DNA of 64,000 nt from NCBI RefSeq assembly GCF_026151205.1, contig NC_087077.1:14170983-14234982 (forward strand), in the 5' to 3' direction. Source of the stretch: Bolinopsis microptera (lineage: Eukaryota > Ctenophora > Tentaculata > Lobata > Bolinopsidae). A program made the translations under genes and the position numbers. This document shows positions 797 to 63,320 of this stretch, one piece after another (the first letter of the stretch is position 1; every line of letters starts with the position of its first letter). The notes under the pieces are model-generated. The model was not told the DNA's origin. It did not search any database and was given only the letters and a program-made list of their open reading frames with translations.

Positions 797-1170
797 AAGG
801 TGTGGCAGGGTGTAGGCCATACACTGAGTAACATCTGCTTATTTAGTCAAACATCTAGTGTGGCCTTGCCCATCAGCAGCCAGTCCGATACTTGGAAGCT
901 GGAGAAATGTCGACTCCAACAGTCCTACCAGCAGTCTTCTGATGACATGATAAGGGCGATTCAACCGCAAGTCAGGTCAGGGAGAGTTTGGAGACCAGAC
1001 AAGGAACTAGATTGTGCTGAGAGGGACTTAGTCTGTGAAGAGGTGAGAGGAATGGTCCAGCCGTACAGCAGGGCAGGGATTTGTTTTGGAGAATGGAAGA
1101 AACCGTGGAAGAAGATGAACGCCCGGGAACAACAAGCTGAGGTCCTTCAGAGAGTTAAAAGAAACCTCGA
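797..1170 (+). CDS. Candidate host exon of an unidentified gene, next to the gypsy element
   Basis: An open frame follows a good splice acceptor (gatttcag, ending at 796) and runs in frame to about 1225. The translation has ordinary protein composition, with no low complexity, and includes stretches such as KLEKCRLQQSYQQSSDDM and GEWKKPWKKMNAREQQAEV. I do not recognise the family. The last 60-70 bases overlap, in antisense, the end of the retrotransposon integrase frame, so the true exon probably ends near a GT between about 1140 and 1180, where transposon sequence begins. A possible partner exon in the same strand is 5827-5900. An alternative is that this is only a chance open frame beside the element. 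The family is unknown and the exon is uncertain. Confidence 0.3.
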
Positions 1171-2741
1171 GCATGAAAGGGAAGTTCAATGCGGCTCTCT
1201 TGAGATGCAGTCTGTTGGTTACTAGTCACAGCTGGCGCTCCTTCTCTACTTGGACCCGGCTGCTGCTGAACTGTTATCACAGGTTGTTCAATATTCCTCG
1301 GCTCAGTGTTTCTTTCTGGTATCTCAATTTGCTGCTTCTGTAACTCGATTACTGGCACTAACCGTTTCTTCATCGCATCTACATGTTTCTTTATGATCCT
1401 GCCCTTGTAGTTCACATCATACCACAGTGATTCTCCGTGTCTTTTTTCAATCGTTGCTGGTTCGTACTCTTTCCGAGTGTCCGGTCGAACCCATATTGTT
1501 TGTTTCTCCTCAAATACACGTTCGTTTCTTTTACTGTCAACAACTTTTTGTTCATTATCAACATCCAGTCGTTCCGCTTCCATCTGATCACTGGGTCTGA
1601 GGTGATGTAACTTAGATCGTAAAGTTCGTCCGTACATCATTACTGCTGGTGGTTGCTTAGTTACAGAGTGTGGAGTATTCCTATATGCCATTAGGAAGTT
1701 AGCGAGATTTAAATCTAAATCCTTAGACTTTTCGTACATCTTTTTCATCGCTGACTTAAAACTCTGGACAAACCGTTCGCAGCTTCCGTTACTCCTCGGG
1801 GAGTATGATGGGCACAAAACATGTCTTATCTGATTCTTCTTTAGGAAGTTCTTGAATTCTTCACTGATAAATTGCGGTCCGTTATCGCTGACTAGAACCC
1901 AAGGTACCCCTGTTCTTGAAAATACTCTTCTCATTGCTTTTATCGTAGCTGGCGCAGTAGTGTTATGAGACATCTTGATAACTTCCGGCCATTTTGAGTA
2001 AGTATCGTACATCAGTAACCAATAGTTATTTTGGAATTCTCCAGCGAAGTCCACATGTACTCGTTGCCAGGGTCTTGTTGATTTAACCCAGGGATGGTCG
2101 ATGACTTTTGGTAACTTTTTCCCGTGTTTTTGGCAGGATGCACATGCTTTAACTAAAATCTCTATATCTTGGTCTATTCCTGGCCACCACACATAGCTTC
2201 TAGCCAGGCTTTTCATTCCAGTCATCCCTACATGTGTAAGGTGTAGCATCTTAAGAACCTCTGCTCTTAGTTTATGTGGAATGATTACACGATTTCCCCA
2301 TGTGATACATCTTTTTTCAGTCGTGAGTTGGTTCTTTCTATCGTACATGGCTTTCATCTCCTTGTGATCTTTGTCTATCTTTTCCGGCCAGCCATCTACA
2401 ATGTACATCGCTATCTTGCTCAGAATAATGTCTTTGGATGTCTCCCGGGCAACTTCTTTTGCATCTATCAGTGCGTCCTCCATGGTCAAAGAAAATGCCT
2501 CTTCACATTCGTTTGGCTCGTCCACATGAATGACTTTTTTCGGGAATCTGGACATTACATCAGCATTAGCATGCTCTTTTGTATTTCTGTATACTATGTT
2601 ATAATCGTAATTTTGTAACAGCAGTGCATATCTGGATAATCTGTTCGCCGTCATCTCTGGAATGCCTCTCTTAGGTCCAAATATATGTACTAACGGTTGG
2701 TGATCCGTCACTAGTTCAAAGTGTCTTCCATACAGATACAT
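1155..2741 (-). pseudogene. pol: gypsy pol, C-terminal part: RNase H end and integrase
   Basis: Frame of about 528 residues. It starts inside RNase H (motif near LVTDHQPL), continues with the integrase zinc-binding region (HLTHVGMTGM followed by CASCQKHG) and the DDE catalytic core: first Asp in VHVDFAG, second Asp in VSDNGPQF, Glu in NGSCERF, with a spacing typical of retroviral-type integrases. The C-terminal portion is Gln/Pro-rich. It lacks its own start because it is the out-of-frame continuation of the upstream frame. The final residues may already be host DNA read in antisense. The catalytic residues are present, but the split frame makes the copy non-functional as it stands. Confidence 0.85.
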
Positions 2742-2862
2742 ATGAAACCTTTTTATAGCCCAGACTATCCCTAAAGCTTCTTTGTCAATCTGGCTATATT
2801 TTTTCTCAGCATTCGATAATGTCCTTGAAATAAATTCAACCGGACGTTCATTTGTTCCATCA

Positions 2863-5700
2863 TCATCTGTGTGACAATACAGCTCCCAAACCCACGCTGC
2901 TTGCGTCTGTATCCAGCTTCAAACGTTTCAGCGGGTTGTAGAACGTCAATACTCTGTCAGAACAAAGTAATTTCTTTAATTCTTCGAAGGCTTTCTGTTC
3001 AGTCTTTGTCCATCGCCATTCAACTTCAGTCTTTCTCAACTCATCCAATGGAGCGATTATTGTCGACAAATCTGGTAGATACTTGCGATAATACCCAACT
3101 GCTCCCAGAAATGCTACTAAATTTTTCACATTTTCAGGTGCCTGTACTTTTAACAGATCGTCTATCTTGCTGTTGACTGGTGACATACCATGCTTGTTCA
3201 CCTTGTGTCCTAGATAAATCACTTCTTCATGCATCAGCTTAGATTTATTCAGTCTGCATCTGAAACCGTTTGCTTCCAGTCTTCTCACAACTTTATTCAG
3301 ATTATCTAAGTGCTCTTTGTCGTTCTTTCCTGATATTAAAATGTCGTCTATCCTACAGCAAACCATAGGTATACCCCGTAGTACATTGTCCATCAGATTC
3401 TGAAAGATTGCTGCGCTGCTATTTATTCCATACGGTAAGCGCGTCCACACATACTGTCCCATATGCGTATTCATTGTCGTGATGAGTTGATCTTCTGTTG
3501 ATAGCTCCACGTTATTGTACGCTTGTTTTATGTCTATGACTGAGAACTTTTCTCCTCCCGAAACGCTTGCAAAACATTCTTCTGTAGTTGGTAACGGGTG
3601 ATGTTTCATTTCCAATAGTTTGTTGACTGCTTTAAAGTCTCCACATATTCTCACACCGTCTCCTTTTTTCACTGGCATAACTGGAGTTCCCCATGGGCTC
3701 TCTTTGACTTTCTTCAAAATTCCTTGTTTCACCATGTTGTCTAACTCCTTTTCCAGTAAGTCTTTAATAGCAAAAGGTACTGCTCTTGATTTCTGCGTGA
3801 CAGGTCTGCTTCCCTCCTTCAATTGGAGTTGCACTTTATAGTTCTTTACCAGACCTAACTCATCTTTGAAGATGTCACTAGACATTATCTCTTGTACTGT
3901 CCGTATCTTTGTTGGTGTTCCAGGATCTGTTTCATCGTCCACACTAACAAAATTTCTCAACTGATGTGTTCTAGGAGCAGTCTCTTCGTCCTCACATCGT
4001 TGTCCAGTTTTAAACTTTCTCTTGGCGGTATCTGTCACTGATTCTGATTCCATAACTCCCAACACGTTCACTGTTCGTACTCCTTCTTGAGTCCCAGGAA
4101 ATTCTCCTTCGTGTGCGCTACAGTTTCCATCAGTTCTCTCCAGTTCAACCTCTTTTGTTGGTCTCTGTCCAACTTCTGCTGTTTGGCCCTGTGTTCTCGT
4201 TACTAACTTTTCTAACCAGTTTTCACCACAAAACTCTGTAATCCAAGAGCGTCCAAACAGTGCTGGAAAGTGATTATCCACCACATACAGTTCCAACCCT
4301 TTCACAATCTGGTTGTTTATCGCCACTTCCACAACTGCTTTACCGCATACCTGCTGGTATTGACCATTCGCCACACGCAGTTGCCTATCACTACTTCTCA
4401 ACTTAAACTCCACACCAGCTTTCTTCAGCATCTCTCTACTGCACACAGATACACTTGATCCACTGTCAAACTCCATCAGACACTCTCGGCGATTGATCCA
4501 AACCTTGATCAGGGGTCTAGAATCACGCAAAAAGTTCACGTTATCGAAGTAAACAGTGTTATCATGCAAAAACCTGTTATCATGCAAAATAATGTTATTG
4601 TCATGCAAATCAACATGCGAATCATCATGCAAATTACTACCATACAGAACACTATTATCATCATCCTGAATTTTAGAATCATCAATACTTGTCAGGTTGT
4701 TGCCCAAATTTGAAGATTTTTGAAACAAAACATTTAACTGGTCATCTAAACTTACGGATTTCTCCGACAATTCACAATAGTAAATATTTCGACTCACAAA
4801 CTGTTCTGTGTCCTGGTTTGAATCGCTGTTTGAATCGCTGTTGTTGCAGTCTGTTGATACATGATGTGTAGATTTACCACTCTGTTTCCAGGACTTGCGT
4901 TTCGTCTTCTTACGGCAGTCCTTAGCAGTATGATACAATTCACCACAGTTGAAACATTTAGTATAGCAGTCCTTGGTTGCATGCGATTTGAGTTTGCATT
5001 TATTGCATCTTGTCTCCTGATTGGAACTTCCCTGTGAAGATTTCCCTTGAGACTTCTTGCTGATCTGTACCTTATGTACAGTTTGCTGGGAGTTTTTAAT
5101 CATTGCAGCCTCTGATTTAGATCTGTCCATTGTCACCACTTTTCTATACGCTCTCTCTAGTGTCAGTTGTTCGAAATCCTCCTCCAATAGCAACTCCTGT
5201 GCTTCTGAGTTAACAATTCCCATTATAAATTGATCTAACATTGAACTGCCGAAGTCTGTAAACTTGCATTTGACTGCCAGTTTTTTTAACCTCGCAACAA
5301 AGTCTGCTGTTTTCTCCGACTGCTTTTGGTGGCATTTGTAGAATCTGAATCGCTCTGCCAAAACAGTCGGTTTCGGGACCATGTGATTTATGAGAATTGT
5401 CTTCATCTCGAAATATGTAAGTTCGTTGACGTCATTTGGAGATGCTAAAGACGTAAGTAGGGAAAAGATTTCTGGATCAATGCTCGTTAAGAAGTGAGGT
5501 TTGATCGTTTGACATAGCTGATTATATTCCGCTAACAGTTGTGCATGCGCGGTTCGTTGCGCTTCATTCGGATTCTCTACTAACGGTTCCGGTTCAACCG
5601 GATAGGATTTTTGGGACTTGAGAAACCATGTGTACTGCTCGAACCAGTCTTCCGGCGCGCTGACTGTAGCGGTCAGAGGATAGGGGTAGGATTTTGTCAT
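2863..5700 (-). pseudogene. gag-pol: gypsy gag-pol, N-terminal part: Gag, protease, reverse transcriptase, RNase H start
   Basis: Open frame of about 945 residues from the first ATG (5698-5700), two bases downstream of the primer binding site. The track-style extension to 5712 would need a TTG start. Domains in order: Gag capsid-like region (residues about 1-200), two CX2CX4HX4C zinc knuckles (about 229-262), aspartic protease with a DSGSS active site (about 410), reverse transcriptase with the catalytic pair in RIDDILI (about 787, where Tyr or Leu is more usual than Arg two residues before the Asp pair), and the start of RNase H with DTDASS (about 933). It then meets a stop; the homologous reading resumes one base out of frame, so a 1-nt insertion or 2-nt deletion near 2870 has broken it. 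Confidence 0.87.
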
Positions 5701-5701
5701 A

Positions 5702-5711
5702 CTCGTCGCCA
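5702..5711 (-). promoter_or_regulatory. gypsy primer binding site
   Basis: The minus strand reads TGGCGACGAG one base inside the presumed LTR end (...CATAACA). This is complementary to the 3' end expected of a tRNA-Ser primer, as known for Mag-type elements, and fixes the 5' LTR boundary at 5713. Confidence 0.6.
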
Positions 5712-5712
5712 A

Positions 5713-6770: not shown

Positions 6771-9700
6771 GTGCCAAGAGTCAGTTTTGTGGGTTATCTT
6801 ACTGGCTGTAAAGGGGTTTTAAAAAGTGTAAATGGTTGAATAAGTGTTACTGGCTTTAACTTAGGGGTTTTAAATAGTTTAAATGGTTGGATAAGTGTAA
6901 AACACATTATTTGGCCGTTTGAGATCCTGAAATTAGTGCCAGGAGTCAGTTTTGTGGATTATATTGTTATCTTACTGGCTGTAAAGGGGTTTTAAAAAGT
7001 GTAAATGGTTGAATAAGTGTAAAACACATTATTTGGCCGTACGAGATCCTGAAATTAGTGCCAGGAGTCAGTTTTGTGGGTTATCTTACTGGCTGTAAAG
7101 GGGTTTTAAAAAGTGTAAATGGTTGAATAAGTGTAAAACACATTATTTGGCCGTACGAGATCCTGAAATTAGTGCCAGGAGTCAGTTTTGTGGGTTATCT
7201 TACTGGCTGTAAAGGGGTTTTAAAAAGTGTAAATGGTTGAATAAGTGTAAAACACATTATTTGGCCATACGAGATCCTGAAATTAGTGCCAGGAGTCAGT
7301 TTTGTGGGTTATCTTACTGGCTTTAAAGGGGTTTTAAAAAGTGTAAATGGTTGAATAAGTGTAAAACACATTATTTGGCCGTACGAGATCCTGAAATTAG
7401 TGCCAGGAGTCAGTTTTGTGGGTTATCTTACTGGCTGTAAAGGGGTTTTAAAAAGTGTAAATGGTTGAATAAGTGTAAAACACATTATTTGGCCGTACGA
7501 GATCCTGAAATTAGTGCCAGGAGTCAGTTTTGTGGGTTATCTTACTGGCTTTAAAGGGGTTTTAAAAAGTGTAAATGGTTGAATAAGTGTAAAACACATT
7601 ATTTGGCCGTACGAGATCCTGAAATTAGTGCCAGGAGTCAGTTTTGTGGGTTATCTTACTGGCTGTAAAGGGGTTTTAAAAAGTGTAAATGGTTGAATAA
7701 GTGTAAAACACATTATTTGGCCGTACGAGATCCTGAAATTAGTGCCAGGAGTCAGTTTTGTGGATTATATTGTTATCTTACTGGCTGTAAAGGGGTTTTA
7801 AAAAGTGTAAATGGTTGAATAAGTGTAAAACACATTATTTGGCCGTACGAGATCCTGAAATTAGTGCCAGGAGTCAGTTTTGTGGGTTATCTTACTGGCT
7901 GTAAAGGGGTTTTAAAAAGTGTAAATGGTTGAATAAGTGTAAAACACATTATTTGGCCGTACGAGATCCTGAAATTAGTGCCAGGAGTCAGTTTTGTGGG
8001 TTATCTTACTGGCTGTAAAGGGGTTTTAAAAAGTGTAAATGGTTGAATAAGTGTAAAACACATTATTTGGCCATACGAGATCCTGAAATTAGTGCCAGGA
8101 GTCAGTTTTGTGGGTTATCTTACTGGCTTTAAAGGGGTTTTAAAAAGTGTAAATGGTTGAATAAGTGTAAAACACATTATTTGGCCGTACGAGATCCTGA
8201 AATTAGTGCCAGGAGTCAGTTTTGTGGGTTATCTTACTGGCTGTAAAGGGGTTTTAAAAAGTGTAAATGGTTGAATAAGTGTAAAACACATTATTTGGCC
8301 GTACGAGATCCTGAAATTAGTGCCAGGAGTCAGTTTTGTGGGTTATCTTACTGGCTTTAAAGGGGTTTTAAAAAGTGTAAATGGTTGAATAAGTGTAAAA
8401 CACATTATTTGGCCGTACGAGATCCTGAAATTAGTGCCAGGAGTCAGTTTTGTGGGTTATCTTACTGGCTGTAAAGGGGTTTTAAAAAGTGTAAATGGTT
8501 GAATAAGTGTAAAACACATTATTTGGCCGTACGAGATCCTGAAATTAGTGCCAGGAGTCAGTTTTGTGGGTTATCTTACTGGCTGTAAAGGGGTTTTAAA
8601 AAGTGTAAATGGTTGAATAAGTGTAAAACACATTATTTGGCCATACGAGATCCTGAAATTAGTGCCAGGAGTCAGTTTTGTGGGTTATCTTACTGGCTGT
8701 AAAGGGGTTTTAAAAAGTGTAAATGGTTGAATAAGTGTAAAACACATTATTTGGCCGTACGAGATCCTGAAATTAGTGCCAGGAGTCAGTTTTGTGGGTT
8801 ATCTTACTGGCTGTAAAGGGGTTTTAAAAAGTGTAAATGGTTGAATAAGTGTAAAACACATTATTTGGCCGTACGAGATCCTGAAATTAGTGCCAGGAGT
8901 CAGTTTTGTGGGTTATCTTACTGGCTTTAAAGGGGTTTTAAAAAGTGTAAATGGTTGAATAAGTGTAAAACACATTATTTGGCCGTACGAGATCCTGAAA
9001 TTAGTGCCAGGAGTCAGTTTTGTGGGTTATCTTACTGGCTGTAAAGGGGTTTTAAAAAGTGTAAATGGTTGAATAAGTGTAAAACACATTATTTGGCCGT
9101 ACGAGATCCTGAAATTAGTGCCAGGAGTCAGTTTTGTGGGTTATCTTACTGGCTGTAAAGGGGTTTTAAAAAGTGTAAATGGTTGAATAAGTGTAAAACA
9201 CATTATTTGGCCGTACGAGATCCTGAAATTAGTGCCAGGAGTCAGTTTTGTGGGTTATCTTACTGGCTGTAAAGGGGTTTTAAAAAGTGTAAATGGTTGA
9301 ATAAGTGTAAAACACATTATTTGGCCATACGAGATCCTGAAATTAGTGCCAGGAGTCAGTTTTGTGGGTTATCTTACTGGCTTTAAAGGGGTTTTAAAAA
9401 GTGTAAATGGTTGAATAAGTGTAAAACACATTATTTGGCCGTACGAGATCCTGAAATTAGTGCCAGGAGTCAGTTTTGTGGGTTATCTTACTGGCTGTAA
9501 AGGGGTTTTAAAAAGTGTAAATGGTTGAATAAGTGTAAAACACATTATTTGGCCGTACGAGATCCTGAAATTAGTGCCAGGAGTCAGTTTTGTGGGTTAT
9601 CTTACTGGCTTTAAAGGGGTTTTAAAAAGTGTAAATGGTTGAATAAGTGTAAAACACATTATTTGGCCGTACGAGATCCTGAAATTAGTGCCAGGAGTCA

Positions 9701-44900: not shown

Positions 44901-47900
44901 TTTGAGTAATTCTCCATTAATGCCATTTTATGCCATTGACCCCCCCCCCCCCTCCCCGGTAAGAAGACTCAGAACAGCATCCAGTAAATTGTAAATTCCC
45001 TGGCAGAGAATGATTCAGCAATTTCTTAAAAACTCAGAATAATCGCAGTATCATCCTCTGACTAGAGATCAGGCTTCCCCAAGTGTTAGTGAATTTACGC
45101 CCAATTTTCAAATCTGTCCCATAAATAGAAATTGTTTCTGAAATAATGTCGAAAAGAATATTTATGGTAAATCGAAAAAAATGACGGAAATGGTATCCAA
45201 TAGAAAATAAGTCGTATATAACTAATAGAGAAATTAATCACCAATTCGCAATCTTTCTATATATAAAGCGAGACGATATATATATCTCTCATATTGCACT
45301 GTCAGTAGAACGTGCTGATAAATTCATACTGTGTTCGCGAGCAGTACCTTGCACCCGAGATCTGACCCAGTCTCTCAGATTTTTCATTCTACAAAAATAT
45401 AGAACTGGATTGAGTGCTGCGTTCAACGCCGTGCAAAAAACATCAGAGATCAGCCAACTATAGAAAAACATGAATTTATTCGCGTAAAAAGGCTCAGGAT
45501 ATTCAGACTTATAACTTAGTTCAGTCATGAACCATAAAATGTTGTTCAGGAAACAGGGGAGGTTGCATGCCAGAAAAAGGATTGTGAATATTCCCATGGT
45601 CACCGATGCTTGGTGATTCCTTTTGTTTGTTTTTGAAGTTCGTCTCTTCTTCATCAGCACGAAAAAGAATACAATGAAACTGGTGGTTGTTACGATCGGG
45701 GGAATGCCAATAGACATGTTGTGAACCAGTTGGTCAATGTAAGAGAATGGCTTTTCTTGAAGGTCATAGTAGCAGTACACGTCAGAGGACGAGTATCCAT
45801 AATTGTTTTCGCCCCCAAAAAGTTCAGCCAAAATGTTGTGAATGATTATGAATCCAGTGTAAAGAAGAATCGATACGATGAGAAATCTCCTCTCGATCTT
45901 GTGGAAGAGAAAGATTAGCTTTATGGATCGTGAAACACTCATTAGCATCACCAGAAACATCGACATGAGTTGGAGATAATAGAAGACCACACTCCACCCA
46001 ACGCAGAATATAGTTTCTCCGAAGATCCCCGGTCTTCTGGCGTTATAGAGAGCTATCATGACTGGTATTGGGATAATACAGGTACCGATGTCAATACAGC
46101 ACACAAACATGTAGATCAAGTTGGAAAAGCTTCTTTGTTTTGCGGAGTAGAAGTAGAGCAGGGAGACAATGTTACCTGGGAGACCGACTAGAGTACATAG
46201 AGTAAGAATGACTGCTAGAAGGGTGTCGTATATTCTGAACTGCTCTTCTGACAAGAACTCTTCTACATTGGGAGTTGGGGGAAGTGGTTCTGTAGTTGTC
46301 ATCTCTGTCTCGAATCTCTAGAATGTCAATGTTAAAAAGATATGTGTCGTACAAATTTATAATCCAATTTATTAATAGCAATTAAACACTAAACAGGAGA
46401 AATCTAACAACTTAAACTGCTGATCAAAGAACAATGCACATCATCTTCAAGCTCGAAAAAAATTTAAAAATGGGTTTGTAAGTTAATAAGAAAGTTAACT
46501 CATCCTCAATGGCACACAACTAGGTCAAGTCAGTCCAAGTTCCCACATTATGCAATGTCATGTGACTTATCACAGGACAAGGACCAATTTGAAATCACAT
46601 TTATAATTTTATCACACACCCTATTGAGATCATGCTTGTGATTTACCATTGTTTAGTTTACTAAATAACTTAAATATCTCATCGAAACTTTAAATTTGAT
46701 TACTACACACACAGCATAATGAATGTTTTGATAGCTAAAGGCTTATGCTGGAAAGGAATAAAGTTTAAGAGAAAAAGCTATCTTAAAATTATTAAATAGC
46801 CCAGATCGAAAAGTAATATCCGTACTAAATTAGTTATGAAAAGGATTTTAGTCCTGAAAATAGTGGCAACACCTGTCATTATCAGTTTAGGAAAGCAAAA
46901 TCGAACTTACCACGCACAACAAACAAAAAATGAACGGAAGAATGACACAGTTTTTTCTTGCTCCATAAATTAGTTAACCTTGGGCAGAATTCTTATTAAG
47001 TTATTAAGGGGTCGTTCACATATTACGTAATCATTATTTTAGCAATTTTGACCCTCTCTCCCCCCTCCGTAATCAAGCTCCCCAACCCCCCCCCCCCCCC
47101 CCCTGACAGCAATATTACGTAATCATGGCCTGACCCACACCCCCCCCCCCCTTTGACTTTTTTCCCTGGAAATCATTTTTCTTTACGTTTCATGCTACCC
47201 TGATCATGATGAGCCGATATCATTGTTATGATATCCGGCCAAGCACCTTTCAAACTACTTACTATAGTCGGATATCCGATCAATTTCTAAATTTTATCAC
47301 TATCAGAATGAAATTGAGTGGAATTTGAAATAAAATATTGTCCAATTGTTATTATTCTAGAGGGTAAAAAAGAGAATCTTGATTACGTAATCAACGACCA
47401 AACCCCCCCCCACCCCCGTAATCAACAGTAAGTATTTGGAACCCCCCCCCTCGGCTGATTACGTAATAAGTGAAAAAACAATAGAGAATACCGGCTACTC
47501 GACCCTAGTTGAACGTTGAGTAAACCGGTTAACAATAAACAAGTAACAACTACGTATCCTATTCTTCAACGATGTCAATGATGCAATTAAGCATCCAATT
47601 CGAACTACAGACAAATAGTTGTCGTCGACATTCGACAAACATATAGCTGAAAAGAACTGACAGATACGATAAGAGTCTGAATTGTTTCACCAACATGTTT
47701 ACTGCGTGTTATAATATTTAGAAGCCATGTGCGGTTCTTTACTAACTATGAGAGAATAATGAACCACATTGTCTCATGTTGAATGTTGCATAATAGTTCA
47801 ACATAGTAAATACCGACAACCGTTATGGATAATTGATCATATCATCTTAATTGAAACAACTGTGGATACTATACATTTTCAGGACCTTCAACCTTGGTGG

Positions 47901-54672: not shown

Positions 54673-57282
54673 ATGTTTGTCGCTGTTACCCTACTATTTG
54701 TAGGACTAGCTGCTACTGTTACAGCCGATGACAGCAGTGATGCTCTTGGATACGGATTGCCAGGACTGCCTCCGCGGTCAAGACGAATTGTCAGCGGTCT
54801 CTCGTGTCAGAACACTGCCGCCTTTGCTCTGACTGGAGCTCTAGAGATAGGTTACCAAAGGTTAACTGGGAATACACCTGTGAAGTTGGCTGAGCAGGAA
54901 ATAATAGATTGCTTCAGCTCTGGTTGCTTTCAGCCTAAATTTGGGATCAACCATCTAGCAAAGTGGTTGACCATCCAGCAGAGACTTTCTTCTGAGGCTG
55001 AATACTCAAACTTCTTCGGAGCTGGAGATCTCGGAAACAAGAACAAAATCTGTCGAGCAGCCCTAGCTCCCAACGCCCTGGAAGTAGAGTTGAAGCTGGA
55101 AAACTCCGAACTGACCCCGATCAAGCCTGATGAAGTGACGATGTGGCTCGAGAAATCAGGGTTCGTGTTCGCCATGATAAGCACCAGTAAGAACAAGTGT
55201 GCCGGGTATTACAATAGAAAAAGCAAGCTCCTCAACACACTGGATGCCTATTGGAACAAGTACCGGGATTCCGACAAGGATGGATTTATTGACGGTTATG
55301 AGGGCTGGTTGACTGGAAATGAGGGTCACGTGGTGGAGGGGGAGAGTACCGTCTACACCGACACCGATGTTCTGATCGTGGGTACGCACACGGACGGAAA
55401 TGACGAGTACTACGTTGTCAGAGACAGCAGGGGTGACATCTGGATGAGAAGGGGACATTTCCTGATCCGTAAAGGTGGTAATATCTGTGGTATTGAGAAC
55501 CACTTGAAATCTGCGGAAGTTGTCCTGGTGGAAAGAGAAGGACATGATCCAGTGACCAACTGTCCAGACCACTCACCTAAGTGGTGCGCTGAAACTAAGA
55601 CCTGTACTGGAGCAAACCAGGACTGTGTGGTTAACGAAACACCTGATGTTCTCGGATACGATCCTGAAACATCTGCTCCAGCCAACAAGGCCAAAGTGTG
55701 GGACTTCTCCGGGCGACCAGAATGCCAAGACAAACCTAGCTACGAGGCTATCTGTTCGGAGCTTGGAAAGTCTTGGAAGAACTGCATGAACGAGAAAGTA
55801 CAAAAAGTGTGTGCTGGAACTTGTTTGGTTTGTGCACGAGACACCTGCGAGGATCACGGCACTGTTCCAGGACAGTGTGAACAGTACTCCAGATTCTGTA
55901 AGGTAGCAGGAGTGATGGCAATGTGCGGTAAAACCTGCCAAATACATCCCAGTGATTGTGGCTCCATGGAGGTCAACATCTACCTGCTGTCTGGACTCTC
56001 AAAGCCGTCCATGGGATCGTGTTACGCACCTGTTATTGAGAACGGACGTGTCCTTAACAGCGGTATGCTACAAAATGGGGACAAGTTGGAGATTACGTGT
56101 GATTCTGGGTTTAACCTGGTTGGTGAACAGAATTACTGTGTCCTTCAGAATATGTACGGGCCTGACAGTAGGATCATGCAGAGCTGTGTTCAAACTGGAG
56201 GTGAGGACTGGAATGGGAACGGAAAGAACTACAACGGTAACAAGGACAAATCAGTGCAGCAGAGTCCGTGTAAGAACTGGAGAGAGGTGATTGTAAAGGG
56301 AACATTTAACCCAACACGACTAGAAGTAAGCTACGGACGAGCTGCCATGAAACAAGGGTCAAGTCTCAATCACAACTATTGCAGGAATCCTGAGGGAGCC
56401 GCACCAGTTCCTTGGTGCTTCGCCTCCGATATTGATCTGAACGTCTACGTAGGCATGGAGATCATATTCACCGGCATGGACCCACCAGAGGACGGTATCC
56501 TCAGAATTGACACCAGTGAGGTGATGTACTGTGAGCTACTGCCACGATGTGGAGGTGATTACTGTGCCAACGCTGCCAATGACCCTGTAGTGGAAATCTT
56601 CTGTTACTCTGACAATCCTAAAGGTGCCTGTAGCCTGGACAAGATCTCGAACGAATGGATGCAGCGGTATTGCCCTCGAATGTGTTGCGCAGAGGCTTCC
56701 AAGTGCGAAGAAACTCCGGAAGATTCAGGATTTGTATTTGACTTCGGAGACGATTCCGGCTTTGGTGACGGAGGAGATGATTTCGGAGGAGACGATTCCG
56801 GCTTTGAAGATTTCGGAGGAGACGATTCTGGATTTGACGATTTCGGAGATGATTCGGGCTTTGACGATTTCGGAGATGATTCTGGCTTTGACGATTTCGG
56901 AGGAGACGATTCGGGCTTTGGTGATTTCGGAGGAGACGATTTTGGAGGAGACAATTTTGGAGAAGATGATTTCGGAGGAGATGATGGTTTCGGTGATTTC
57001 GGAGGAGATGATGGTTTTGGTGATTTAGAAGGAGACAATTTTGGAGGGGATGATTCCGGCTTTGGGGATTTCGGAGGAGATGATTTCGGAGGAGATGATT
57101 TCGGAGGAGATGATTTTAGAGGAGATGATTTCGGAGGAGACGATTTCGGAGGAGACGATTTTGGGGGAGATGATTTCGGAGGAGACGATTTCGGAGGAGA
57201 TGATTTCGGAGGAGACGATTTCGGAGGAGACGATTTCGGAGGAGACGATTTCGGAGGTGACGATTTCGGCTTCGACTTTTGA
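54673..57282 (+). CDS. Secreted pseudo-papain/ShKT/sushi/kringle protein with Asp-rich repeat tail (gene A, 869 aa)
   Basis: Intronless. Signal peptide (about 1-18), then almost directly a papain-fold domain (about 38-290) with no inhibitor propeptide. Aligned to C1A proteases, the catalytic Cys is Thr48 (CQNTAAF for CGSCWAF), His is Thr231 (DTDVLIVG), Asn is Asp251 (RDSRG) and the oxyanion Gln is also lost, so peptidase activity is not expected. A 12-residue EF-hand-type loop DSDKDGFIDGYE (199-210) sits inside the domain. Then come a small Cys cluster (297-318), ShKT (351-387), a second ShKT-like module (392-429), sushi (450-505), kringle (about 513-626; NHNYCRNPEG, PWCF), a ShKT-like module (626-672) and an acidic DDFGG/DDSGF tail (685-869). 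Probable secreted or extracellular matrix protein binding Ca2+. Tandem paralogue of 58955-62365. Confidence 0.93.
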   Translation: MFVAVTLLFVGLAATVTADDSSDALGYGLPGLPPRSRRIVSGLSCQNTAAFALTGALEIGYQRLTGNTPVKLAEQEIIDCFSSGCFQPKFGINHLAKWLTIQQRLSSEAEYSNFFGAGDLGNKNKICRAALAPNALEVELKLENSELTPIKPDEVTMWLEKSGFVFAMISTSKNKCAGYYNRKSKLLNTLDAYWNKYRDSDKDGFIDGYEGWLTGNEGHVVEGESTVYTDTDVLIVGTHTDGNDEYYVVRDSRGDIWMRRGHFLIRKGGNICGIENHLKSAEVVLVEREGHDPVTNCPDHSPKWCAETKTCTGANQDCVVNETPDVLGYDPETSAPANKAKVWDFSGRPECQDKPSYEAICSELGKSWKNCMNEKVQKVCAGTCLVCARDTCEDHGTVPGQCEQYSRFCKVAGVMAMCGKTCQIHPSDCGSMEVNIYLLSGLSKPSMGSCYAPVIENGRVLNSGMLQNGDKLEITCDSGFNLVGEQNYCVLQNMYGPDSRIMQSCVQTGGEDWNGNGKNYNGNKDKSVQQSPCKNWREVIVKGTFNPTRLEVSYGRAAMKQGSSLNHNYCRNPEGAAPVPWCFASDIDLNVYVGMEIIFTGMDPPEDGILRIDTSEVMYCELLPRCGGDYCANAANDPVVEIFCYSDNPKGACSLDKISNEWMQRYCPRMCCAEASKCEETPEDSGFVFDFGDDSGFGDGGDDFGGDDSGFEDFGGDDSGFDDFGDDSGFDDFGDDSGFDDFGGDDSGFGDFGGDDFGGDNFGEDDFGGDDGFGDFGGDDGFGDLEGDNFGGDDSGFGDFGGDDFGGDDFGGDDFRGDDFGGDDFGGDDFGGDDFGGDDFGGDDFGGDDFGGDDFGGDDFGGDDFGFDF

Positions 57283-57298
57283 GGTGAAAACTTCCTGG

Positions 57299-57304
57299 AA
57301 TAAA
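57299..57304 (+). terminator. Poly(A) signal of gene A
   Basis: AATAAA 17 bases after the stop codon, within a 3' UTR segment (aacatgaacgccaaaaacta) that gene B shares. Confidence 0.6.
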
Positions 57305-58954
57305 CATGAACGCCAAAAACTATGAACCAGGCATCGGCTGAACTAGATAATCGGGAAATTTTCGTTTAAAATATTTTCTGACAAATCCAATGTCTCAAAA
57401 CTTAAGGATTTTGACAAGTTTAGAGGGATTTTCAAGGGTTTGTGTAATTTTATTGGGGTCCGTTGGATAAAAAAGTGTTTTATACAGTTTGAGACAATTC
57501 TAAAATTAAATTAAATGGGAATTATAGGGTAGAGTTTTACAGGATACCTCTGTGAACGTCAGATATTTTAACCGACAATTATGTGATTTTAATTCTATCA
57601 GTGATTGTTGAAATTTGATGATATTAATGTTATTGTTATGACCTGGTTTGATTCTATTCATGGGCAACGCAACGATAGTAATTATATTTATCTCAATGTT
57701 GTTTGCTAACTCACGACGAATTTAATTAACTTCCACGACATGCCCTCTGATTTGTCCTGTCTTCTATTTCCTAGATGTTTCAGCCTCCGCAAATATCCCG
57801 TCCTCTTAACAAAAAATGTAAATGAATCAGTCTCCTGCAAAATTGGTTCAGCAAAATATATTTAATCAATAAGACACGACGAAGAATAAAGCGATCGTAA
57901 AAATGGCAGTGTAAAACTGGAAACAAAGTACGAAATTCAGTTCCATATTGCGTGTTAGGTTGTTTGGTTTTTGTGTTTTAACCTAGCCGACGATCACAAA
58001 TTTAGTGGTTAATTCCGTTTACATCTTTTGAATTTAGACTTACATTCCATTCCCTGTGACCACTAGTGACGGGTGCTAATTCTAAGTAAGGTTTATTTTG
58101 AGAATTGTGGAACCAGGTAATACGAAAAATTTACATATTCATCTTTCCTAGAGCTTCAGATCAGCATAAACACTTGGATATGACGATAAAATCACCATTT
58201 TTAACAGTATGTTCGCAGATGTCAGTAGTAATCATGGATGAAAGCTTTAGAAAAACGCGCTTGTGCGAACAATGAACTCTTATTTAGAAGAGAATTGGAA
58301 ATCTCAAACTACGGATCCGGCCAACCCGTACTTGACACAGAATTAGAATACCCTGACCTTACATCCCGCAACTCTTTGACTGCCGGTTGCATTGAGTCGT
58401 GGCATCGTGTTGAGTCATTGCTATCTTTATCTTTAGAGCGACACGAGAGCATCCTGAATCTTGATCTGATGTCCCATAGATATTGTCACGCACATCGGTC
58501 ATGCCTCATGGTTGAACCACATGACTTCGCACGGAACTTTCCCAGGGTGCGATCTATTTTGAGCACAGGGTGAGCGTGAAGGTCCCCCCCCCCCCCCCCC
58601 GTGAAGGTGACCGGATACCTTTCCTTTCAAGACGCTAATCATCTGTGAAATAATACTCAGGGGAAGCGTGAAGGTGACCGGATACCTTTCCTTTCAAGAC
58701 GCTAATTATCTGTGAAATAATACACAGGGGGAGCTGGAGGGTGCGTGTAATGTGAATAGTCGAGGAAGTGACACGTAGGGATGCAAACTCGGACTGGGTA
58801 ACGGCTTGTAATAATACTGCAGCAGACAATTTTGATTGAATTTACTCTGCACTGGCTAATTCAAATCCTGCAACAAGTCGTCCAACGTAATTTGATTTTA
58901 GAGCGTCCCACGACTTTAGGAAGTGAATGAAGCTCATTACTTTCCTTGTTGAAC
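57305..58954. other. Spacer between the two tandem genes
   Basis: No firm gene. A 111-codon frame (58238-58573) with ordinary composition is present, but has no recognisable domain and no support. A tandem duplication of about 72 bp (gtgaaggtgaccggatacct ... aataatac) lies at 58600-58735 next to a 16-17 base C run. The promoter of gene B must be within the last few hundred bases; no unambiguous TATA box was seen. Confidence 0.4.
58600..58735. repeat. Tandem duplication, about 72-bp unit, two copies
   Basis: Both units contain ctttcctttcaagacgctaa and ctgtgaaataatac; they differ at few positions and follow a C run. Confidence 0.8.
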
Positions 58955-61900
58955 ATGTTTGCTGCTGCGCTCCTGCTCTGTGCAGGATTCCTTGCTGCTG
59001 AGGCTTTTAATACGAACTTTTATGACAAGGACCCAGCTGCTCTCCAATACGGTCTACCAGGATTACCACCACGCTCTCGAAGGGTCGTCAGTGGGATTCT
59101 CTGTGGTAACTCTGCTGCCTTCGCTCTCACCGCCGCACTGGAAATCGGATACCAGCATTTGACCACTAACATTCCGACCAAGCTGTCTGAGCAGGAGATA
59201 GTTGATTGCTTCTACAGTGGCTGCTTTGATGCTGATCTTGATCATCTTGCGAAGTGGTTGTCGGTTCAAGGAAGACTCGCTCCAGAAGACGGTTACACGC
59301 CTTTCCTCGGAGGCTGGGATGCTGAAAACTCTATCTGTAGGGCTGCTAATTCTCCTAACGCACTCGAAGTCGGTTTGGGCCCGTTGATCGGAATTAAGGC
59401 ACACCAGATAGATGAATGGCTGGAGAAATCAGGCTTCGTCTTTGCCAAGATAAGCTTAGCCCACGAGAAATGTCCCGGATATTACAAGAGAAAGAGTGAA
59501 GTGTTCGGAACTAACTTCATGAAGAAATACCAGGACGAAAATGATGACGGTCTCATAGACGGATACATTGAGTGGTTGACTGGAGAGAATGGCCACGTGG
59601 TTACCGGAACAGACACCATCTTCTCAGACACCTATGTCCTGATCGTGGGTCTCTACACCGACTTAGACGGAACAGAATATTACATCGTGAGGGACAGCAG
59701 AGGTGATGTCTGGATGAGACGAGGACATTTCTTGATACCCAGAGGTAACAATCACTGTGGTATCGAGTATAACCTTCAGGCAGCTGAAGTAAGTACAACT
59801 CACACACATAACGAATTAGGCTGCCCAGACAAATTCCCCACATACTGTAGTGAAACGATGACCTGTACTGGAGCTGACGAGGACTGTGTCGCCAACGAGA
59901 CCCCTGATGTTACTGGATATAATCCTGAAACATCTGCTCCAGCTAATAAGGACACGGTCTGGGACTTCTCCGGGCGACCAGAATGTCAAGATACACCCGG
60001 CTTTGAGAAGACATGTGGCGATATAGCTTCAACATGGGGAAATTGTAAAAGTGAAAAAATCAAGAAAATGTGCGCTGGAACTTGCTTGGTCTGCGCAGAC
60101 ACCTGTTCTGACTTTGAGAACGTCAAAGGAGAGTGTGCCAAGTATACCAGGTTCTGTAAGGTTGACGGCGTGGTCACCATGTGTGCTAAAACCTGCAACC
60201 TTCATCCAAGCGACTGTGGTAGCCTCGAGGACAACATCAACCTGCTGGCTGGAGTTGGAAAACCTTCTAAGGGAATGTGCTACGCACCCGTCATAGAGAA
60301 CGGAAAAGTCCTGAACAGTGGAATGCTGCAAGCTGGCGACGCTTTGCTGATCGAGTGCAATCCTGGGTTCACTTTGATCGGGGAACAGAATATTTGTGTC
60401 CTTCAGAATATGTACGGGCCTGACAGTAGGATCAAGCAGGCTTGTATCCAGATAGGAGACGAGGAGTGGAATGGCAACGGAAAGAACTACAACGGAGACA
60501 GGCAAACAACCCTGCAGTTCAGTGGTTGTGCCAATTGGCAAACAGTTGCTGCCACAGGTCTTTTCAACTTCAGAAGAGCGGATCTGAACTTTGTCAAAGC
60601 AGCCCTTAATCAGGGTTCAAACTACAATCACAACTTTTGCAGGAACCCGGATGGAGTAGCTGCCACCCCCTGGTGCTTCACCTCTGAGATCAACTTGGAG
60701 ATGTACAAGAAGCTTGCCATTACCTATGTAGGAGGAGAAGCTCCGGAAGATGGCAAGATAGAAGTTAATCTAGGAGAGATATTCTACTGCGACGGTTTGC
60801 CAAAGTGTGGCGGTGACTGGTGTGCTAACAGTGCCAACGATCCCGTAATGGGTCCTTTCTGTTACTCTGATTATCCACAGGACGATTGCTCCTTGGACGG
60901 TGTAAATGGTGAATGGATGCAAAGCTTCTGTGCCAACTACTGTTGCAGGGAAGCAACTGAGTGTGCAGAAACTCCAGAAGACGGTGGTGGCGGCGATTTT
61001 ATGGGAGACGATTTCGGAGACGACAGTTTCGGAGGTGACTTCGGAGAAGAAGACGACTTCGGAGATGATTCCGGCTTTGACGATTTCGGAGACGATTCTG
61101 GATTTGACGATTTCGGAGACGATTCTGGATTTGACGATTTCGGAGACGATTCCGGCTTTGACGATTTTGGAGGAGATGATTTCGGATTTGACGATTTCGG
61201 AGACGATTCCGGCTTTGACGATTTTGGAGGAGATGATTTCGGAGACGATTCCGGCTTTGACGATTTCGGAGACGATTCTGGCTTTGACGATTTCGGAGAC
61301 GATTCTGGCTTTGACGATTTCGGAGACGATTCTGGCTTTGATGATTTCGGAGGAGACGATTTTGGAGGAGATGATTTCGGAGATGATTCCGGCTTTGACG
61401 ATTTCGGAGACGATTCTGGCTTTGATGATTTCGGAGGAGACGATTTTGGAGGAGATTATTTCGGAGGAGATGATTTCGGAGGAGATGATTTCGGAGGAGA
61501 CGATTTTGGGGGAGATGATTTCGGAGGAGAAGAGGATTTCGGAGGAGGAGATGATTTCGGAGGAGATGATTTCGGAGGAGATGATTTCGGAGGAGATGAT
61601 TTCGGAGGAGATGATTTCGGAGGAGAAGAGGATTTCGGAGGAGATGATTTCGGAGGAGATGATTTCGGAGGAGATGATTTCGGAGGAGAAGATGATTTCG
61701 GAGGAGATGATTTCGGAGGAGATGATTTCGGAGGAGAAGAGGATTTCGGAGGAGATGATTTCGGAGGAGATGATTTCGGAGGAGATGATTTCGGAGGAGA
61801 AGATGATTTCGGAGGAGAAGATGATTTCGGAGGAGATGATTTCGGAGGAGATGATTTCGGAGGAGATGATTTCGGAGGAGAAGAGGATTTCGGAGGAGAT

Positions 61901-62365
61901 GATTTCGGAGGAGATGATTTCGGAGGAGATGATTTCGGAGGAGAAGAGGATTTTGGAGGAGATGATTTCGGAGGAGATGATTTCGGAGGAGATGATTTCG
62001 GAGGAGACGATTTTGGAGGAGATGATTTCGGAGGAGAAGATGATTTCGGAGGAGATGATTTCGGAGGAGATGATTTCGGAGGAGATGATTTCGGAGGAGA
62101 TGATTTCGGAGGAGATGATTTCGGAGGAGATGATTTCGGAGGAGATGATTTCGGAGGAGATGATTTCGGAGGAGATGATTTCGGAGGAGATGATTTCGGA
62201 GGAGATGATTTCGGAGGAGAAGAGGATTTTGGAGGAGATGATTTCGGAGGAGACGATTTCGGAGGAGATGATTTCGGAGGAGACGATTTTGGAGATGATT
62301 CCAGCTTTGACGATTTTGGAGGAGACGATTTCGGAGACGATTTCGGTGACTTCGGTGACTTTTGA
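58955..62365 (+). CDS. Secreted pseudo-papain/ShKT/sushi/kringle protein with long Asp-rich repeat tail (gene B, 1136 aa)
   Basis: First ATG at 58955 (frame open from a TTG at 58946); it gives a good signal peptide (about 1-17). Same architecture as gene A. Papain-fold domain with catalytic Cys replaced by Ser53 (CGNSAAF), His by Thr226 and Asn by Asp247. The EF-hand-type loop DENDDGLIDGYI (194-205) lacks the last Glu. The Cys cluster, two ShKT modules, sushi, kringle (NHNFCRNPDG, PWCF) and a third ShKT-like module follow. The tail runs from about residue 677 to the end (about 460 residues), made of DDSGFDDFG units first and then about 60 DDFGG/EEDFGG units, and ends DFGDFGDF. Extremely acidic, no basic residues. 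Ser for Cys recalls silicatein and TINAG-type proteins, but those keep or treat the other residues differently, so catalysis is unlikely. Confidence 0.93.
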   Translation: MFAAALLLCAGFLAAEAFNTNFYDKDPAALQYGLPGLPPRSRRVVSGILCGNSAAFALTAALEIGYQHLTTNIPTKLSEQEIVDCFYSGCFDADLDHLAKWLSVQGRLAPEDGYTPFLGGWDAENSICRAANSPNALEVGLGPLIGIKAHQIDEWLEKSGFVFAKISLAHEKCPGYYKRKSEVFGTNFMKKYQDENDDGLIDGYIEWLTGENGHVVTGTDTIFSDTYVLIVGLYTDLDGTEYYIVRDSRGDVWMRRGHFLIPRGNNHCGIEYNLQAAEVSTTHTHNELGCPDKFPTYCSETMTCTGADEDCVANETPDVTGYNPETSAPANKDTVWDFSGRPECQDTPGFEKTCGDIASTWGNCKSEKIKKMCAGTCLVCADTCSDFENVKGECAKYTRFCKVDGVVTMCAKTCNLHPSDCGSLEDNINLLAGVGKPSKGMCYAPVIENGKVLNSGMLQAGDALLIECNPGFTLIGEQNICVLQNMYGPDSRIKQACIQIGDEEWNGNGKNYNGDRQTTLQFSGCANWQTVAATGLFNFRRADLNFVKAALNQGSNYNHNFCRNPDGVAATPWCFTSEINLEMYKKLAITYVGGEAPEDGKIEVNLGEIFYCDGLPKCGGDWCANSANDPVMGPFCYSDYPQDDCSLDGVNGEWMQSFCANYCCREATECAETPEDGGGGDFMGDDFGDDSFGGDFGEEDDFGDDSGFDDFGDDSGFDDFGDDSGFDDFGDDSGFDDFGGDDFGFDDFGDDSGFDDFGGDDFGDDSGFDDFGDDSGFDDFGDDSGFDDFGDDSGFDDFGGDDFGGDDFGDDSGFDDFGDDSGFDDFGGDDFGGDYFGGDDFGGDDFGGDDFGGDDFGGEEDFGGGDDFGGDDFGGDDFGGDDFGGDDFGGEEDFGGDDFGGDDFGGDDFGGEDDFGGDDFGGDDFGGEEDFGGDDFGGDDFGGDDFGGEDDFGGEDDFGGDDFGGDDFGGDDFGGEEDFGGDDFGGDDFGGDDFGGEEDFGGDDFGGDDFGGDDFGGDDFGGDDFGGEDDFGGDDFGGDDFGGDDFGGDDFGGDDFGGDDFGGDDFGGDDFGGDDFGGDDFGGDDFGGEEDFGGDDFGGDDFGGDDFGGDDFGDDSSFDDFGGDDFGDDFGDFGDF
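60975..62362 (+). repeat. Coding minisatellite of gene B (15-nt and 27-nt units)
   Basis: The tail is a tandem array of GATGATTTCGGAGGA (Asp-Asp-Phe-Gly-Gly) and GACGATTCCGGCTTT GACGATTTCGGA units. Synonymous positions are nearly uniform, so the similarity is at the DNA level: recent expansion or gene conversion. A similar but shorter array occupies 56725-57278 in gene A. Confidence 0.95.
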
Positions 62366-62380
62366 AGTGAAAACATCCTG

Positions 62381-62386
62381 GATAAA
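62381..62386 (+). terminator. Probable variant poly(A) signal of gene B
   Basis: GATAAA 16 bases after the stop, at the position where gene A has AATAAA; the surrounding 3' UTR is shared between the genes. Confidence 0.4.
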
Positions 62387-63320
62387 CATGAACGCCAAAA
62401 ACTATGAACCAGGCATCGGTTAAACTAGATAATCGGGATAAAATTAAAGGGTTCTATTTACTTTTATTTAGACAGTTTTCATATTAAACCAAACGGGAAT
62501 TGTAGGGACTGTTTTACAGAATACCTCCTGATTTTGATGGAACCTAGACACTTTAAATCATATTTTGATATAAGTCGAAAGAAAAATATCTGAGAACTAG
62601 AATAGTGCTATATTAATTCCAGCTGTTAATTTTATGTAAATTCAATTTTATTTGCTGCAAAATATTTAGCTTCACACTTTGTTCCGTCATTCCGATTCAT
62701 CAATGAGTAATTCTCATTAAACGAAATTTTAAAGTGAACTGTCAGTTAACGTTTAATATCTCTGAAAATGATAGTTTCATCTCATTCCTAATGTAAACTA
62801 CAATCTGGAATATTCCCTTCTTCGCTCAGAAAACGACTTTCTTGGAGTTAAACTGACAGCACTATACAAATATAGTATACAAAAAAAATATAGTATACAA
62901 AATACAAATGTATACAAATAACAAATATATACCAATTGTATACAAATAATTTTTAACGAAATCACGAACCATCCAGAACCTTTTGAAATATAGTTTAGTC
63001 AACCCAAACTATATAATATCATGGCTGCGTCTCATTTGTTAATAAACGGAATATGCCCCAGGTGATTTGGAGTGTCGCTTAAACGTGAAAATGGCGATGG
63101 CAGCGCTCAGCCTTGTGATATTTCCAAAGCCGAGATATTCAAGCGGATTATAACATTTGAGTTTACACGGAGCTGTCTCACTTTCATTTTCCTAGCCTAA
63201 TTTTAAACAAAACTCGCAGTGAGTAACCCTAACCCAATCAGTGACGACCAAACCCTAAATTTCATAGCTAACCCTGTACGTATCGAAACTTATAATGCTT
63301 TTAGAATTTAGGCATTTAAA
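62387..63320. other. Downstream intergenic DNA
   Basis: No gene recognised. It includes a short tandem of atatagtatacaaa-like repeats near 62868-62945. Confidence 0.5.

Follow-up and report, generated by a model that had tools for sequence, protein, structure and literature searches.

Two adjoining genes of the ctenophore Bolinopsis microptera, here called A and B, encode proteins that are best explained, with a probability that we put at about 0.5, as pseudoenzymes derived from a modular zymogen that would now serve as a calcium-binding extracellular scaffold or adhesive. Both genes are intronless and lie about 1.7 kb apart on the plus strand of contig 6, in a window of 64,000 nucleotides (NCBI RefSeq assembly GCF_026151205.1, contig NC_087077.1, positions 14,170,983 to 14,234,982 of the forward strand), the whole stretch that was analysed and to which the coordinates below refer. 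The evidence supports the view that A and B belong to a family of papain-fold pseudoenzymes of secreted type that is maintained under constraint, and the loss of catalysis is close to certain. A role in binding or structural work, which an earlier note made from the sequence alone had proposed for the two proteins, would fit A and B as they are described here.

Catalytic columns, pro-region and constraint

The genes and their papain-fold domains are placed as follows.

54673..57282, plus strand: gene A, an intronless secreted-type pseudo-papain of 869 amino acids in a single open frame (database protein P0001 is 93% identical)
54790..55530, plus strand: papain-fold domain of A, residues 40-286
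54814..54816, plus strand: Thr48 of A, at the position of papain Cys25 (alignment columns)
55363..55365, plus strand: Thr231 of A, at the position of His159 (alignment columns)
55423..55425, plus strand: Asp251 of A, at the position of Asn175 (alignment columns)
58955..62365, plus strand: gene B, an intronless paralogue of 1136 amino acids (open frame; start supported by P0002)
59087..59800, plus strand: papain-fold domain of B, with Ser53, Thr226 and Asp247 (Pfam E 5e-12)

Pfam matched Peptidase_C1 above its cut-off in both proteins (E 5e-8 in A and 5e-12 in B). When we aligned them with 39 papain frames that this genome yielded at 40 loci picked by hand among at least 154 Peptidase_C1 matches (one locus had no frame), the columns of Gln19, Cys25, His159 and Asn175 read G/T/T/D in A and G/S/T/D in B. 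The earlier note had held that all three catalytic residues were replaced, and the alignment returned exactly the residues that it had named, Thr48, Thr231 and Asp251 in A and Ser53, Thr226 and Asp247 in B. The same note's claim that an inhibitory propeptide is missing also held, since only 44 (A) and 49 (B) residues precede Cys22, compared with 126-140 in seven intact database proteins. Among the eight dead proteins counted the figure was 35-49, and three further dead frames (C2a, C2b and C3b, introduced below) have 43-51 residues ahead of Cys22 as judged by eye. In the pro-region of the intact database proteins Pfam, searched at E up to 1, recognised nothing. We rejected an active C1A cysteine protease for A and B because Gln19, Cys25, His159 and Asn175 are all replaced and the pro-region is gone.

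The model of the A domain keeps the papain fold, with Thr48 opening the central helix, Thr231 opening a strand and Asp251 standing after the next strand, as in papain, and its structural matches include the cathepsin/silicatein chimera 2vhs. This model of the papain domain alone was used because that of the whole protein (692 amino acids, 11 sequences) was poor, with a mean predicted local distance difference test score (pLDDT) of 43.5 and a predicted template modelling score of 0.37. Each protein begins with a hydrophobic segment that looks like a signal peptide when the sequence is inspected by eye, and both are probably secreted. The start of B was set at the ATG at 58955, not at an earlier TTG, because the homologue P0002 opens with the same residues.

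The papain domains of A and P0001 share 94.3% identity (233 of 247 residues), while four of the five downstream modules share 92-98% and the first ShKT-like module 79.5%. Thus the keeping of a dead papain domain is not due to chance, since its identity is close to that of most other modules. The ratio of nonsynonymous to synonymous substitution (dN/dS) between A and B was near saturation (proportion of synonymous differences 0.74 over the core). Because the synonymous sites of A, B and a third copy, C, are near saturated, the comparison of B with C gave the sole usable value over the papain domain, 0.154. Immediately 3′ of the last sense codon, the first 77 bp of A (57280-57356) and of B (62363-62438) match at 93.5%; given that this match stands despite near-saturated coding synonymous sites, gene conversion may be keeping the two 3′ ends alike.

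The wider family and its intact sister group

The "two paralogues" of the earlier note proved too few, as the same genome adds a third intronless copy with an acidic tail (C; contig 3, 786 amino acids) and three intron-bearing dead paralogues, C2a and C2b on contig 2 and C3b on contig 3. A fourth intron-bearing relative, C12 on contig 12, has an active site that we consider intact because Gln19, Cys25, His159 and Asn175 are all present in its exons: the exon with the stretch Gln19-Lys-Thr-Cys-Gly-Asn-Cys25 is closed by a GTAAGT donor, the exon of His159 also ends at GTAAGT, and Asn175 is in the next exon behind a CAG acceptor. Downstream of these, C12 carries two ShKT-like stretches, a sushi, a kringle and a final ShKT-like stretch.

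A search with A gave nine matches, eight family members and one lancelet kringle protein, and a profile search for wider homologues gave ten, all of the same family; the two scored candidate lists capped at 8000 and 7998 entries, so that more distant kin may be missed. The search with C12 gave 17 matches, of which ten covered the papain part only (35-37% of the query) and seven were modular (P0012-P0018, 630-737 amino acids). These seven, and P0001-P0011 with the exception of P0009, are probably ctenophore proteins. An intact-site enzyme with the same kinds of modules, found in C12 and in the seven database proteins, had gone unnoticed in the earlier note. The intact proteins have the same downstream module kinds in the same order as A and B and form their sister clade, but they keep Gln, Cys, His and Asn and have neither the calcium-type loop nor the tail described below; in addition, P0012-P0018 have a pro-region and a single ShKT-like module before the sushi, compared with two in A, B and C12. 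The Kringle profile passed its cut-off in P0014 and reached 24.4-31.2 of the required 34.3 bits in the other six, while Sushi passed in three of the seven and ShK in none.

In one alignment, the four columns read Q/C/H/N in all eight intact members. The 15 dead rows aligned (P0011, available as a C-terminal part only, was left out) form a graded series away from this state. Besides A and B, the tailed rows are

C, G/T/I/D; P0001, G/T/S/D; P0002, G/S/A/E; P0003, G/T/A/D; P0004, G/S/T/D

the tailless rows are

P0005, K/S/H/D; P0006, R/S/Q/D; P0007, R/S/H/D; P0008, R/S/H/D; P0010, K/S/H/D

and the intron-bearing rows are

C2a, A/T/V/T; C2b, S/T/E/G; C3b, R/A/E/T

P0004 ends out of frame, which makes its tail unreadable, and it was placed with the tailed group by the tree. 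Ser/His/Asp occurs in four of the five tailless rows and His is lost in all seven tailed ones. As read from these columns, Ser/His/Asp is a change of kind, yet none of the five tailless rows retains the oxyanion Gln.

In a tree rooted with 12 same-genome papains chosen from the 39, the whole family was one clade (100/100), in which the intact clade (96/91) was sister to the dead clade (99/98). Within the latter, the three intron-bearing copies (97/90) were sister to the 12 loop-bearing proteins (100/100), and the tailed proteins formed a single clade (100/100). An earlier tree with 16 papains and without P0012-P0018 placed C12 as sister to the other 15 members (98/96), and a full-length tree, in which the branch of C12 was long, recovered these tailed and loop groups as well. 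The five tailless proteins did not form one clade in any of the three trees, P0008 standing apart. Since the intact and the dead types are sister clades, the simplest account is that catalysis and pro-region were lost just once.

This genome holds a very large set of papains, many of them intronless genes; many of the Peptidase_C1 matches cover a near-whole domain in one open frame. Some of these other papain frames appear to have an altered catalytic column, with Ser, Lys, Ala, Trp and Ser at position 25 in L026, L041, L043, L046 and L056, respectively, Leu at 159 in L038 and Gly at 175 in L042, and catalytic loss may recur among the papains of this genome. Another of them (L024:1201-2130) is followed by an acidic stretch rich in Asp and Ser, a second link between a papain and an acidic repeat.

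Calcium-type loop, RGD, modules and acidic tails

Two features of the papain domain had escaped the earlier note, a loop of calcium type and an Arg-Gly-Asp (RGD) triplet.

55267..55302, plus strand: DxDxDG calcium-type loop of A, DSDKDGFIDGYE, residues 199-210, in an insert of the papain domain (sequence pattern)
59534..59569, plus strand: calcium-type loop of B, DENDDGLIDGYI (sequence pattern)
55429..55437, plus strand: RGD of A, residues 253-255, at papain 177-179 and next to the old active site (present in 11 of the 12 clade members)
59699..59707, plus strand: RGD of B (clade comparison)

Both features were gained in the clade that holds A and B, the RGD at the lip of what was once the active site. 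For the loop, the pattern D.[DN].DG.[ILMV]D was found in all 12 rows of the loop clade, in none of ten other family rows (C2b was left out) and in none of the 39 own-genome papain frames. RGD occupies papain positions 177-179 in 11 of the 12 rows (P0008 has RGS) and in none of the ten others.

Downstream of the papain domain the following modules were located.

55561..55626, plus strand: Cys-rich motif CP..P.WC.....C......C of A, residues 297-318 (four Cys invariant in 10 of 10 rows of one alignment)
55723..55833, plus strand: first ShKT-like module of A (six-Cys pattern; no ShK match in A)
55846..55959, plus strand: second ShKT-like module of A (six-Cys pattern; no ShK match in A)
56020..56187, plus strand: sushi module of A (Pfam Sushi 20.0 bits, cut-off 20.7)
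56212..56439, plus strand: kringle of A, residues 514-589 (Pfam Kringle E 9.3e-11)
56548..56706, plus strand: third ShKT-like module of A (ShK 12.4 bits, cut-off 20.9; Cys pattern conserved)
56719..57279, plus strand: acidic D/G/F tail of A, 187 amino acids with 71 D+E, 39 F, 64 G and 1 K/R (15-bp tandem repeat)
60470..60697, plus strand: kringle of B (Pfam E 1.6e-10)
60977..62362, plus strand: acidic tail of B, 462 amino acids with 195 D+E, 94 F, 157 G and 0 K/R (composition and repeat analysis)

The earlier note had all downstream modules preserved in A and B. The kringle exceeded its cut-off of 34.3 bits in both proteins (42.3 and 41.6 bits), and its top matches in a PDB sequence search were the kringles of plasminogen and hepatocyte growth factor (HGF); sushi and ShK are weak in A and clearer in relatives. 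Sushi is marginally below its cut-off in A and is recorded for the homologue P0003. For the first two ShKT-like modules of A, the ShK profile gave nothing at E up to 10, and ShK passed its cut-off (22.6 bits, cut-off 20.9) in the piece of C3b spanning these two modules. D/E, G and F abound in the tails of A, B, C, P0001, P0002 and P0011, each of which contains 0-1 K/R, and P0003 has an acidic tail of 48 residues with Tyr.

Elsewhere in the window, a 67-bp unit occurs twice in tandem (95%) between A and B at 58600-58734. On the minus strand, two long frames at 1155-5712 resemble a gag-pol retrotransposon and a single-frame protein at 45289-46302 resembles a seven-helix receptor, both as judged by eye. 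Outside the window, the three best PDB matches of an ionotropic glutamate receptor from this genome are all to the receptor ML032222a of Mnemiopsis, which is in keeping with a ctenophore source.

Possible roles and known systems

We propose that A and B descend from a zymogen cysteine protease that would already have carried ShKT-like, sushi and kringle modules. Sequence, tree and fold support the following course. One branch shed the catalytic Cys and Asn, the pro-region and the oxyanion Gln but retained the modules. A later one, which became intronless and reads Ser/His/Asp, acquired the DxDxDG loop in the papain domain together with the RGD by the old active site, and a further one lost His and added the acidic Gly/Phe tail. 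The present protein may be a calcium-binding extracellular scaffold or adhesive in which the papain body and modules bind partners and receptors on cells may recognise the RGD; through the D/E-rich tail with its regularly spaced Phe, molecules could associate in calcium-rich seawater into a gel, mucus, glue or matrix. The calcium and adhesion part of this role is tentative, though quite possible. A bolder version, in which a protease active site was rebuilt as a cell-adhesion site during the change from modular zymogen to scaffold, its lip turning into a fixed RGD that sits next to a newly gained calcium loop and to an acidic tail bridged by calcium, to give a ctenophore adhesion or gel protein that evolved independently of TINAG, is in our view doubtful.

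Several observations weigh against a calcium-binding scaffold. RGD could be explained by chance or structure, because little beyond a Trp to Arg change is required; it is missing from P0008, and it occurs elsewhere, in the tail of A (816), in P0016 (444) and in the own-genome papain L025. The loop region of A has no EF-hand match in Pfam (E up to 10) and is weakly modelled (pLDDT about 55-64), and just four of 12 rows have Glu at position 12 of the loop. The acidic tail varies in length and unit and could have arisen by neutral expansion of a repeat. Some modules match weakly, ShK in A and the kringle in P0008 (23.4 of 34.3 bits), with no kringle match in P0010 at E up to 1, and the pro-region of C12 was not located. 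The main text of a colloblast study (PMC6278862) gave no match for papain, peptidase or kringle, and expression, sought in the available parts of PMC6278862 and PMC11184263, gave none either.

The dead proteins could instead be decoys or regulators that bind substrates, partners or inhibitors of active papains, the intact sister included, and so tune their activity. The very large papain gene set is in keeping with this, as is the presence of modules of these kinds in the intact sister, and pseudoenzymes of known role may often regulate their active counterparts, according to the part of PMC4671257 available. However, such a function needs neither acidic tail, loop nor RGD, and the tailed group retains no catalytic residue at all, so that we regard it as unlikely, if still a serious alternative. 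A signalling ligand acting on a receptor, as in HGF, would follow the same logic of a kringle joined to a dead protease domain, and the PDB matches of the kringle point the same way; yet the likeness is confined to the kringle and the acidic repeat tail looks structural, which makes this distinctly improbable. Very improbable is the idea that the relatives with Ser/His/Asp use their papain fold as functional serine-type hydrolases, of which A and B would be decayed kin. Although Ser25, His159 and Asp175 align in P0005, P0007, P0008 and P0010, the oxyanion Gln19 has given way to Lys or Arg in each of the five tailless rows and to Gly in all seven tailed ones, Trp177 is Arg in P0010 and in the rows of another alignment, and His has become Gln in P0006 and is lost from every tailed row including A and B. 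Finally, A, B and C are intronless, as non-functional pseudogenes or retrocopies might be, but this was rejected, with next to no probability left to it, on the long open frames, the conserved modules, the 93% identity to P0001 and the purifying selection.

The preferred reading, pseudoenzymes recruited as an extracellular scaffold or adhesive, would give a concrete candidate for a ctenophore matrix, mucus or adhesive protein, in a phylum placed as sister to the other animals (PMC10232365, in the part available). Most pseudoenzymes are known as end points only, while here a graded series runs from a Q/C/H/N zymogen through a Ser/His/Asp form to His-less forms with the same module kinds throughout, and the order of losses and gains is therefore testable. 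The earlier note knew of no named family with this architecture, and we found none among the open-licence papers listed, in which no prior description of this combination of modules, of its intact sister, of the loop and RGD or of the graded series was found either. Inactive papains as such are already known.

Among known systems, sponge silicateins have a cathepsin-L-like fold with Ser for the catalytic Cys, keep His, Asn and the propeptide, and are not known to have such added modules. A and B keep none of the three catalytic residues, and membership of the silicateins was rejected since His and Asn are replaced in both. SERA5 of Plasmodium shows that a papain-like domain in which Ser replaces Cys can be indispensable in a role other than catalysis, and its putative triad retains His762 and Asn787 (PMC4671257, in the part available). 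It differs from A and B in this retention and in not being an animal protein. Hepatocyte growth factor and apolipoprotein(a) join kringles to a protease domain that does not cut; that domain is trypsin-like, whereas in A and B it is papain-like. In the available text of PMC10318531, TINAG and TINAGL1 are inactive papain-like proteins that affect cell-matrix interaction. A and B resemble them in being papain-like and catalytically inactive. TINAG combines EGF-like and somatomedin-B modules with a papain-like domain whose Cys is replaced by Ser, and it is not known to have the kringle, ShKT, acidic tail and DxDxDG loop of A and B. Membership was rejected, as a Pfam search at E up to 1 reported no domain in A besides Peptidase_C1 and Kringle, to which B adds a sub-threshold Peptidase_M7. 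TINAG is nevertheless probably the nearest functional analogue of A and B, which may represent an independent parallel to it.

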